64,000 nt of DNA. Source: Clostridioides sp. ES-S-0010-02. GTDB lineage: Bacteria > Bacillota > Clostridia > Peptostreptococcales > Peptostreptococcaceae. Below, piece by piece: positions 27,439 through 47,945 of the stretch. The position numbers and the translations under genes are program-made. Below the pieces are notes generated by a model. The model was not told the origin of the DNA, did not search any database, and saw only the letters and a list, made by a program, of their open reading frames with translations. Within the stretch, counting starts at the first letter, position 1. Each line of letters starts with the position of its first letter. The stretch covers positions 1,109,317 through 1,173,316 of the forward strand of contig CP067345.1 in NCBI GenBank assembly GCA_020641055.1, written 5' to 3'.

Positions 27439-27455
27439 ATTACAAAAAGATTACA
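27439..27455 (+). promoter_or_regulatory. WalR-like direct repeat before cwp6
   Basis: ATTACA at 27439-27444 and 27450-27455 separated by AAAAG, which fits the reverse complement of the WalR/YycF consensus TGTWAH-N5-TGTWAH. The second copy overlaps the -35 box. CAAAAA, the CamA target, lies inside at 27443-27448. Confidence 0.6.
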
Positions 27456-27576: not shown

Positions 27577-29601
27577 ATGAGAAAGAGAACAAAATTATTA
27601 GCAACAGGAATGTTGTCTATAGCAATGGTGGCACCAAACGTGGCTTTAGCAGCGGAAAATACTACTGCAAATACAGAATCTAATTCAGATATTAATATAA
27701 ATTTACAAAGAAAAAGTGTTGTGTTAGGAAGTAAATCGAATGCAAGTGTAAAGTTTAAAGAAAAATTAAATGCTGATTCAATAACATTAAACTTTATGTG
27801 TTATGATATGCCACTTGAAGCTACTTTAAATTACAATGAAAAAACAGATACATATGAAGGTGTAATAAACTATAACAAAGACCCAGAATACTTAAATGTA
27901 TGGGAACTTCAAAGCATAAAAGTAAATGGTAAAGATGGACAGAAGGTTTTAAATAAAGAAGATTTAGAATCTATGGGGTTAAATCTTAAAGATTATGATG
28001 TTACACAAGAGTTTATAATAAGTGATGCTAACTCAACAAAAGCAGTGAATGAATATATGAGAAAAACTTCTGCACCAGTAAAAAAACTTGCAGGAGCTAC
28101 TAGATTTGAGACAGCAGTTGAGATAAGTAAACAAGGATGGAAAGATGGAGCTAGTAAGGTTGTAATAGTTAATGGAGAACTAGCAGCAGATGGAATCACA
28201 GCTACTCCACTTGCTTCTACATATGATGCACCAATATTACTTGCAAATAAAGATGATATACCAGAAAGTACAAAGGCTGAATTAAAACGTCTAAACCCAA
28301 GTGATGTAATAATCATAGGTGATGATGGTTCAGTTTCACAAAAGGCAGTATCTCAAATAAAATCTGCTGTAGATGTAAATGTAACTCGTATTGGTGGAGT
28401 TGATAGACATGAAACATCTTTACTTATAGCAAAAGAAATCGATAAGTATCATGATGTTAATAAGATATATATAGCAAATGGATATGCTGGTGAGTACGAT
28501 GCTCTTAATATTTCATCAAAAGCAGGTGAAGACCAACAACCTATAATATTAGCTAATAAAGATTCTGTACCAGAAAGTACATATAATTGGCTATCTTCAC
28601 AAGGTTTAGAAGAAGCTTATTACATAGGTGGAGACCAAAGTCTATCATCAAAACTTATAGATAAAATATCTAAGATAGCAAAAAATGGGACTTCAAAAAA
28701 CAGAGTATCTGGAGCTGATAGACATGAAACTAATGCGAAGGTAATTAAGACTTTCTATCCAGATAAAGAATTGAGTGCAATGTTAGTTGCAAAATCTGAC
28801 ATAATAGTTGACTCAATAACAGCAGGACCTTTAGCAGCTAAGTTGAAATCTCCAATACTTATAACTCCAAAAACTTACGTTTCTGCATACCATAGTACAA
28901 ATTTATCAGAAAAAACAGCAGGAACAGTATATCAAATTGGTGATGGAATGAAGGATAGTGTTATAAATTCTATAGCATCTAGTTTATCAAAACACAATGC
29001 ACCAACAGAACCAGAAAATCCAGGTTCAGCAGCAGGAAAAACTGTAGTGATAGACCCAGGTCATGGGGGTTCTGACTCAGGAGCAACAAGTGGATTAAAT
29101 GGTGGAGCTCAAGAAAAGAAATATACTCTTAATACAGCACTAGCAACTACTGAATATTTACGTTCAAAAGGTATAAATGTTGTTATGACTAGAGATACAG
29201 ATAAAACAATGGCTTTAGGAGAAAGAACGACATTATCAAACACTATAAAGCCAGATTTATTTACAAGTATACATTACAATGCATCTAATGGAGCTGGTAA
29301 TGGTGTGGAAATTTTTTACAAAGTAAAAGATAAAAATGGTGGAACAACTAAGACTGCGGCATCAAATATATTAAAAAGAATATTAGAGAAATTTAATATG
29401 CAAAATAGAGGAATCAAGACAAGAACACTTGCTAATGGAAATGATTACCTATATGTATTAAGAAACAATAAATATCCTGCAATACTTGTAGAATGCGCAT
29501 TTATAGACAATAAGAGCGACATGGATAAGTTAAATACAGCAGAAAAAGTAAAGACAATGGGAACTCAAATTGGAATAGGAATAGAAGATACAGTAAAATA
29601 A
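27577..29601 (+). CDS. cwp6: Cwp6 surface N-acetylmuramoyl-L-alanine amidase
   Basis: 674 residues. Signal peptide to about residue 26, then a 130-residue beta-type segment, three CWB2 domains (about 168-480, with APILL, QPIIL and SPILI), and a C-terminal Amidase_3 domain from residue 488. The amidase zinc and catalytic motifs are present: VIDPGHGGSDSG, QEKKYTLN, SIHYNAS and LVECAFIDN. It cuts the bond between muramic acid and the peptide of peptidoglycan from the outside. The promoter holds a WalR-like repeat, in keeping with control of wall hydrolases by the WalRK system (inference). Confidence 0.95.
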   Translation: MRKRTKLLATGMLSIAMVAPNVALAAENTTANTESNSDININLQRKSVVLGSKSNASVKFKEKLNADSITLNFMCYDMPLEATLNYNEKTDTYEGVINYNKDPEYLNVWELQSIKVNGKDGQKVLNKEDLESMGLNLKDYDVTQEFIISDANSTKAVNEYMRKTSAPVKKLAGATRFETAVEISKQGWKDGASKVVIVNGELAADGITATPLASTYDAPILLANKDDIPESTKAELKRLNPSDVIIIGDDGSVSQKAVSQIKSAVDVNVTRIGGVDRHETSLLIAKEIDKYHDVNKIYIANGYAGEYDALNISSKAGEDQQPIILANKDSVPESTYNWLSSQGLEEAYYIGGDQSLSSKLIDKISKIAKNGTSKNRVSGADRHETNAKVIKTFYPDKELSAMLVAKSDIIVDSITAGPLAAKLKSPILITPKTYVSAYHSTNLSEKTAGTVYQIGDGMKDSVINSIASSLSKHNAPTEPENPGSAAGKTVVIDPGHGGSDSGATSGLNGGAQEKKYTLNTALATTEYLRSKGINVVMTRDTDKTMALGERTTLSNTIKPDLFTSIHYNASNGAGNGVEIFYKVKDKNGGTTKTAASNILKRILEKFNMQNRGIKTRTLANGNDYLYVLRNNKYPAILVECAFIDNKSDMDKLNTAEKVKTMGTQIGIGIEDTVK

Positions 29602-47039: not shown

Positions 47040-47106
47040 AATATATTTCTAATTTGTAACCAGGGGGAGCAAAAAGAAACAAATAGAGACTAAAAAGAAA
47101 CAAAAG

Positions 47107-47134
47107 ATTACAAAAAGATTACAAAAAGATTACA
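47107..47134 (+). promoter_or_regulatory. Triple WalR-like box with CamA motifs before cwlA
   Basis: ATTACA occurs at 47107, 47118 and 47129, each separated by AAAAG, giving two overlapping matches to the WalR consensus (reverse complement of TGTWAH-N5-TGTWAH). A weaker GTTGCA follows at 47141. The 11-base period puts all copies on one DNA face, just upstream of the -35 box. CAAAAA occurs at 47070, 47111, 47122 and 47133. Confidence 0.65.
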
Positions 47135-47141
47135 AAAAAGG

Positions 47142-47170
47142 TTGCAATTTATTTTGATGTAAGTTAGAAT
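47142..47170 (+). promoter_or_regulatory. Promoter of cwlA-like gene
   Basis: -35 TTGCAA (47142-47147), 17-base spacer, -10 TAGAAT (47165-47170), immediately downstream of the ATTACA repeats. Confidence 0.65.
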
Positions 47171-47237: not shown

Positions 47238-47945
47238 ATGATGAATATTAAAAATAAAAAACATATATTGAAAAAATTTATAGCGATGGTGTTAATAGCA
47301 GGAGTTGTTACAGTGGAGGCGGGAGCAATAACAGCTAGTGCAGCAGAGTTATCTAATTCACCTATGACTGCGACAGTAGATCAATGTGACTTCTTAAACA
47401 TGAGAAGTGGAGCTAGTGCAAATGATGCAATAGTAGGAAAGATAAACACAGGTGACAAAGTTGAAGTTTTAGAATTACATTCAAATGGATGGATAAAAAT
47501 AAAAACAGTTGACAATGTTACAGGATGGGTAAATGGAGATTATTTAACTATTGAAGGTGGAAATGTAGACGCAAAGGTACAAAATGTTTTAAACTTAGCA
47601 TTTAAGCAACAAGGTAAACCATATAGATGGGGAGCAACTGGACCAAACTCTTTTGATTGTTCTGGGTTCACTTCTTATGTTTACAAAAATGGAGCAGGAG
47701 TTAATTTGCCAAGAGTATCAAGATCACAAGCAACAGTAGGAAAGAAAGTATCTAGAGCAGAATTAAAAGCAGGAGATTTAGTTTTCTTTGGTTCAGGTGG
47801 TTCAATAAATCATGTTGGGTTGTATATAGGAGATTCTAAATTTATACATTCACCACAAACAGGAGATGTAGTAAAAGTTACTAGTATGGCTCCAGGAACT
47901 AATTATGCTAGAAGACTTATAACTGCTACACGTGTTTTACAATAA
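47238..47945 (+). CDS. cwlA: Secreted NlpC/P60 peptidoglycan endopeptidase (CwlA-like)
   Basis: 235 residues. Signal peptide ending near residue 36 (ASAAEL), one bacterial SH3 domain (about 42-105; FLNMRSGAS, GWVNGDYL), and a C-terminal NlpC/P60 domain with the triad C141 (FDCSGF), H192 (NHVGLYIG) and H204 (IHSPQTGD). Such enzymes cut between D-Glu and meso-DAP in stem peptides. Position and layout match the C. difficile cell-separation hydrolase CwlA. It has no CWB2 domain, so it is held only by SH3 binding or secreted. Preceded by WalR-like boxes. Confidence 0.92.
   Translation: MMNIKNKKHILKKFIAMVLIAGVVTVEAGAITASAAELSNSPMTATVDQCDFLNMRSGASANDAIVGKINTGDKVEVLELHSNGWIKIKTVDNVTGWVNGDYLTIEGGNVDAKVQNVLNLAFKQQGKPYRWGATGPNSFDCSGFTSYVYKNGAGVNLPRVSRSQATVGKKVSRAELKAGDLVFFGSGGSINHVGLYIGDSKFIHSPQTGDVVKVTSMAPGTNYARRLITATRVLQ

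Follow-up and report, generated by a model that had tools for sequence, protein, structure and literature searches.

A conserved array of WalR-type boxes overlapping CamA target sites in front of the wall-hydrolase gene CD2768 of Clostridioides

The best-described counterparts of the locus analysed here are the WalR (YycF) promoters of Bacillus subtilis, whose consensus is quoted as TGTWAH-N5-TGTWAH (PMC9210968) and is matched exactly in front of the gene CD2768. The CD2768 promoter also shares with the B. subtilis promoters its tandem boxes in 11-base steps, a wall hydrolase as target and an adjoining sigma-A-type promoter. It differs from them in having three boxes, in A-tract spacers that spell CAAAAA and in the reported direction of control, which is repression; binding of WalR at CD2768 is putative. 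Under the name CD630_27680 the gene already figures in the WalR literature (PMC9210968). Overexpression of WalR takes it down about 4-fold (log2 -2.06 and -2.29; Table 2 of that paper), CRISPRi of the wal operon leaves it unchanged, and ‘two putative WalR binding sites’ are noted about 100 nt upstream. The direction in print is repression by overexpressed WalR. Since putative sites have been proposed, WalR boxes at this gene are not new, and the two sites fit the two overlapping box pairs described below. In the portion of PMC9210968 that treats CD630_27680 we found nothing on CamA sites, on a third box or on how far the element is conserved, all of which are described here.

CamA methylates the last A of CAAAAA (PMC8187626), and at the spoIIE promoter one CamA site controls sporulation (PMC13395437). 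Like CD2768, spoIIE has a CAAAAA cluster near its -35 element, adjoining a response-regulator site (there a putative Spo0A box). Mutation has shown that the single spoIIE site matters, whereas the sites at CD2768 are known from sequence alone and follow from the letters of the boxes. We found no literature linking WalR and CamA at CD2768. A third type of relative is the phased A-tract promoter, exemplified by C. perfringens plc. In plc-type promoters the A-tracts lie in helical phase 5' of the -35, as they do at CD2768; the A-tracts of CD2768 differ in being the spacers of a recognised regulator motif.

The CD2768 element is real, strongly conserved and largely anticipated in print, and the overlap of WalR-type and CamA sites can be explained more simply than by an epigenetic switch. 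The promoter offers a sharply conserved test case in which the target of an orphan methylase is built into the spacer of a regulator's site. If methylation does nothing at CD2768, the lesson is a useful warning that A-rich boxes in AT-rich genomes yield CAAAAA clusters without epigenetic meaning.

Layout of the promoter and identity of the gene

The window, by which we mean the whole 64-kb stretch of DNA analysed, contains three ATTACA boxes at 47107-47134 with AAAAG spacers between them (Table 1). Read on the minus strand, the array is TGTAAT-N5-TGTAAT-N5-TGTAAT, an exact fit to TGTWAH-N5-TGTWAH, and the three boxes form two overlapping pairs at the promoter, the arrangement of a WalR-controlled promoter. 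The same DNA places CAAAAA close to the -35 and to a regulator box, as in CamA-controlled promoters of the spoIIE type, and combines A-tracts at the helical period 5' of the -35 with predicted curvature, as in phased A-tract promoters. The first-pass annotation had described the boxes, their spacers, the exact consensus fit and the seven bases to a TTGCAA/TAGAAT promoter, and its coordinates are confirmed. Four CAAAAA sites do lie within 69 bases (47070-47138), with starts at 47070, 47111, 47122 and 47133. The background rate assumed there, roughly one CAAAAA per kb per strand, is about right: the 64 kb hold 91 on the plus strand (1.42/kb) and 46 on the minus strand (0.72/kb). The core proposal, a wall-hydrolase promoter with a WalR-type tandem array that physically overlaps CamA targets, is supported. 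Because the array repeats one 11-base unit (AAAAGATTACA, 3.4 copies), its CAAAAA copies cannot be counted as independent. The final CA of each box, joined to the A-tract, automatically yields CAAAAA.

Table 1. Features of the window at CD2768, cwp6 and camA
Feature	Position	Strand	Basis
WalR-type box 1 (ATTACA on +, TGTAAT on -)	47107..47112	-	sequence; pattern DTWACA-N5-DTWACA
WalR-type box 2	47118..47123	-	sequence; pattern DTWACA-N5-DTWACA
WalR-type box 3, 7 bases 5' of the -35 hexamer (gap 47135-47141)	47129..47134	-	sequence; family comparison
AAAAG spacers 1 and 2	47113-47117, 47124-47128		sequence
-35-like hexamer TTGCAA	47142..47147	+	sequence; invariant in 8/8 genomes
-10-like hexamer TAGAAT, 17 bases 3' of the -35	47165..47170	+	sequence; invariant in 8/8 genomes
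CAAAAA 1; target A 47116, base 4 of spacer 1	47111..47116	+	sequence; target base as reported in PMC8187626
CAAAAA 2; target A 47127, base 4 of spacer 2	47122..47127	+	sequence
CAAAAA 3; target A 47138, base 4 of the 7-base gap that follows box 3	47133..47138	+	sequence
CAAAAA 4, outside the array, kept in 6/8 genomes	47070..47075	+	sequence; alignment
Invariant 72-base block: boxes, spacers, -35 hexamer	47092..47163	+	alignment of 8 Clostridioides genomes, no gaps
CD2768/CD630_27680: SH3_3 + NlpC/P60 wall hydrolase, 235 aa, reported as exported	47238..47945	+	Pfam, translation, SPQTG motif
Second ATTACAAAAAGATTACA of the window, before cwp6; second box overlaps a -35-like TTACAA (by eye)	27439..27455	-	pattern match
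cwp6 (Cwp6_N, Amidase_3, CWB2)	27577..29601	+	Pfam domains
camA, 577 aa, with all 15 CamA base-contact residues named in PMC8187626	58891..60624	+	Pfam; residue comparison

The gene behind the array had been called cwlA, a name that proves to be wrong. CwlA is CD1135 and has three SH3_3 domains (PMC8262956), and a cwlA gene should accordingly encode three SH3_3 domains and NlpC/P60 in about 430 aa; Pfam and translation give the ORF at 47238-47945 one SH3_3, one NlpC/P60 and 235 aa. It carries SPQTG, which is reported for CD2768, a putative sortase substrate (PMC5569036), and tagged CD2768, when expressed, was detected only in the culture supernatant (PMC5569036). The locus number CD2768 is assigned here by description, not from a record, and its equivalence to CD630_27680 is assumed from number and description. 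A probable cwlA (three SH3_3 plus NlpC/P60; locus L236) lies elsewhere on the chromosome, at about 3.218 Mb. The 260 bases 5' of its predicted start contain no WalR pair and one CAAAAA, which falls inside the preceding ORF. The accompanying idea that the hydrolase is needed for cell separation is not supported for CD2768, because CRISPRi silencing of CD630_27680 affected neither growth, morphology nor lysis (PMC9210968).

Conservation and chance expectation

The 72-base block is invariant in all eight Clostridioides genomes. When the 19 variable sites were scattered at random over the 198 non-coding bases, a run of this length appeared in 42 of 20000 trials, and the longest invariant run in the CD2768 coding sequence is shorter, at 37 bases. 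Conservation of the block clearly exceeds chance. The CAAAAA sites of the array are kept in 24 of 24 instances in the genus, and the site at 47070 in six of the eight genomes. Within the genus, methylation sites cannot be separated from boxes because the whole block is invariant.

Comparison outside the genus drew on 46 genomes with a CD2768-like match at E 1e-40, of which the 22 with a returned locus were read. The start codon of each was picked by a mechanical rule, and the box count covers the ATTACA orientation within 260 bases. Tandem arrays are present at 15 of these 22 loci (33 boxes in total) and absent from seven, and CAAAAA occurs on 16 of the 33 boxes. Box 3, or its equivalent, stands 7 bases before a TTG at all eight genus loci and at eight of the 15 other family loci with arrays. 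Three genomes (G053, G054 and G055) have paired boxes without CAAAAA, though they encode CamA orthologues of 61-63% identity in which 13 of the 15 base-contact residues are kept. Judged from these loci, the boxes are conserved more deeply than the methylation sites, because relatives outside the genus keep boxes more often than CAAAAA and some that encode CamA lack CAAAAA.

Shuffling and reversed patterns served as controls for how much of this could arise from base composition. In 200 dinucleotide shuffles of the 64-kb window, four CAAAAA within 69 bases of one strand arose once and three or more in 30 shuffles; a WalR triple arose in four of the 200. A chromosome-wide scan for triple CAAAAA clusters, with gaps of at most 30 bases, gave 26 matches, some of them overlapping, against 21 for the reversed pattern, and on this ground we rejected CAAAAA density as stand-alone evidence. 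The CD2768 cluster, at 28 bases, is the tightest of the 26 matches. The pattern DTWACA-N5-DTWACA has 93 matches on the chromosome against 76 for its control, so that most single matches are chance; the stricter RTTACA-N5-RTTACA has 15 against 4. The promoter hexamers TTGCAA/TAGAAT match 9/12. Promoter-like matches around CD2768 (11) are hardly above those in shuffles (7.9, sd 2.4), so support for the hexamers comes from their conservation.

A probable WalR-type control region and its alternatives

We consider it about 70% probable that the array is a WalR-type control region of CD2768, at which WalR binds against the -35 and sets output. WalR would sit side by side on the three direct boxes, in 11-base steps along one face of the helix, where it would adjoin RNA polymerase and thereby set the amount of CD2768 hydrolase; the published overexpression would correspond to a lowering. 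Curvature from the A-tracts may help WalR binding or polymerase contact. The spacers are short A-tracts, a form of WalR-type site that recurs in the family, and with the boxes they create CamA sites; CAAAAA in the array would be methylated like nearly all other copies, with no regulatory role needed. The sequence, its spacing, its conservation and the A-tract spacers of genomes in which no CamA match was detected were observed here, and the response to WalR dosage comes from print; we infer direct WalR binding, its geometry, the direction of direct action and the position of methylation as a bystander. Tandem boxes with A-tracts also precede cwp6, an SH3/NlpC/P60 gene and a gene for a G5/3D-domain protein, which speaks for WalR. 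Against it stand the published finding that CD2768 does not change on wal CRISPRi and the absence of cwp6 from both regulon tables (PMC9210968). Boxes placed next to the -35 would be compatible with activation no less than with repression, and the reported effect is repression.

The A-tract spacers were followed across genomes with and without CamA. Pairs of the form RTTACA-N5-RTTACA outnumber matches to the reversed pattern in all three groups of genomes: 106 vs 44 for the genus, 500 vs 123 for the remaining family members in which CamA has a match, and 51 vs 19 for the 12 family members where it has none at E 1e-40. For the A-tract form RTTACAAAAANRTTACA, with the same groups and threshold, the counts for pattern and control are 39 and 0 (8 genomes of the genus), 100 and 4 (51 genomes with CamA) and 6 and 0 (12 genomes lacking a match). 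The A-tract share of pairs is highest in Clostridioides (39/106), lower in the other CamA-bearing genomes (100/500) and lowest in those without a match (6/51). This order is the one that would suit a CamA effect; the difference between the latter two shares is not significant (Fisher p = 0.19). Judged by identical strings, the 39 genus matches seem to represent some five loci, each present in as many as eight species, and one of these strings lies inside an rpsL-like gene in the source genome. After AAA, the fourth base is A in 17 of 31 cases with CamA and in 6 of 10 without (p = 1.0); for this comparison the CamA-bearing set consisted of 89 rows, taken from the first nine genomes. Neither comparison shows a CamA effect, though at low power.

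In the rest of the order, RTTACAAAAANRTTACA has 30 matches in 21 genomes against 9 for the control, so many single A-tract matches there may be chance. In thirteen of the 21, CamA has no match at E 1e-20, and the remaining eight have CamA matches of 29-37% identity only. Two or more A-tract sites are carried by six of the 13; some of these genomes are incomplete (two of them at 72% and 84%), so that CamA may have been missed in individual cases. In the stretches of the source genome that were read, AAAA follows the first box in 6 of 51 intergenic pairs and after 10 of 309 intergenic single boxes. A-tract spacers seem to be enriched in WalR-like pairs, an enrichment that says nothing about CamA. 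CAAAAA inside the boxes is probably a by-product of A-rich box design, not an epigenetic switch.

The A-tracts could alternatively act through DNA shape, with tracts at 11-base steps bending the DNA 5' of the -35 to the benefit of polymerase contact and with WalR binding secondary or absent. The bend predicted for the array by a wedge model is reached by 0.02% of 42-base and <0.005% of 63-base stretches of the 64-kb window, and the clostridial plc promoters provide a precedent. Some relatives keep the letters of the boxes while the A-tracts are broken, as in GTTACAATAAGATTACA and GTTACAGAAATGTTACA, and CD2768 responds in print to WalR overexpression (PMC9210968); we regard curvature as an unlikely basis for the element.

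The first-pass annotation had suggested that the overlap could be a methylation switch. In such a switch CamA would methylate the spacer adenines and alter binding of WalR or polymerase, so that hydrolase output would track methylation state; bound WalR may in turn protect the sites, so that a fraction of them stays unmethylated and is inherited in that form. The overlap is exact, each target A falling on base 4 of a spacer or gap, and the three sites are invariant in the eight genomes. The spoIIE promoter supplies a precedent, A-tract spacers are most frequent in Clostridioides, and cwp16/cwp17 are both up without camA (PMC13395437) and induced by WalR (PMC9210968). However, the boxes outlast CAAAAA in CamA-bearing relatives, A-tract boxes are present in genomes without a detected CamA match, the 47070 copy is not fixed in the genus, and the invariance of the whole genus block makes sites and boxes indistinguishable there. 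CAAAAA clusters at cwp16/cwp17-like genes are not conserved (see below). Methylated and plain DNA showed no appreciable difference in affinity for Spo0A in vitro (PMC13395437), and in log phase an average of only 21.5 of 7,721 CAAAAA sites per genome (0.3%) are unmethylated (PMC8187626). A switch is not supported by this evidence, and we think it improbable.

We are just as sceptical of a broader version, in which the Clostridioides A-tract box RTTACAAAAARRTTACA would be a composite WalR/CamA site before several wall-lytic genes and occupancy and methylation would interact. The genes concerned would be CD2768, cwp6, the G5/3D gene and the second SH3/NlpC/P60 gene (with a one-letter variant of the first box), and such a site, if true, would make wall turnover depend in part on how the cell's DNA is methylated. 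In the family, this type of box looks ancestral, as does a CamA-like enzyme. That the array is a functionless chance repeat in AT-rich DNA is very improbable: short AT-rich tandem repeats are common (79 rows at score 30 or more) and WalR-pattern pairs in the window number 4 against 1.8 expected, with up to 5 in 200 shuffles, but the array is invariant in eight genomes and keeps its distance to a -35-like TTG in other genera.

Related loci and the camA neighbourhood

In the source genome, eight intergenic pairs overlap CAAAAA, and wall genes are prominent among those downstream. They comprise cwp6, CD2768 (two pairs), the gene for the G5/3D-domain protein and a second SH3/NlpC/P60 gene, together with genes for a small membrane-type protein without a Pfam match, a maf-like and a lipoprotein-like product. 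A further three matches that overlap CAAAAA fall within ORFs, and one of these ORFs is rpsL-like (labels for maf, lipoprotein and rpsL were assigned by eye). At the second SH3/NlpC/P60 gene, which we take to be CD0183, TTTACAAAAAAGTTACA starts 125 bases upstream and forms a WalR-like A-tract pair whose first box is a one-letter variant. The ATTACAAAAAGATTACA pair before cwp6 is followed by an inverted TGTAAT and is predicted to be strongly curved. In PMC9210968, cwp6 is absent from both regulon tables.

The genes treated here as cwp16/cwp17 are two tandem Amidase_3 genes, taken by domain and arrangement, not from a record. Two of the 26 triple CAAAAA clusters lie 93 and 100 bases before their predicted starts. 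A search of the genus returned eleven matches in seven of the eight genomes; the five leaders for which a start codon was found contain 3, 5, 4, 3 and 1 CAAAAA, and the six other matches were dropped as having no start. None of the five leaders, which are T-rich and drift between species, contains a TGTWAH-N5 pair, and one has two TGTAAT boxes 17 bases apart. As a second conserved CamA element these genes were rejected, since their CAAAAA sites drift between species.

The gene camA had been placed 11 kb from the array, and the distance is indeed about 11.8 kb; this closeness means little because CamA acts on thousands of sites. Across the family, CamA has a match in 59 of 71 genomes at E 1e-40 or better, with 40-100% identity. 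Of the 15 base-contact residues, between 12 and 15 are retained in the orthologues fetched from outside the genus (20 of 51, mostly the better matches; L239-L258). From these comparisons CamA does not look specific to C. difficile but seems to go back to the ancestor of the family. To our knowledge it has been called rare or specific in print, and we found no report of its family-wide spread in the literature.

Of the 48 family genomes with matches to both, 33 have a CD2768-like gene and camA no more than 20 kb apart on a single contig; paralogues may be among the CD2768 matches, and contig breaks account for some of the misses. By this measure the two genes appear to form an old neighbourhood. 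One genome (G011, contig C4) has a CamA match interrupted by 20 stop codons, apparently a decayed copy, and its CD2768-like gene still has paired boxes.
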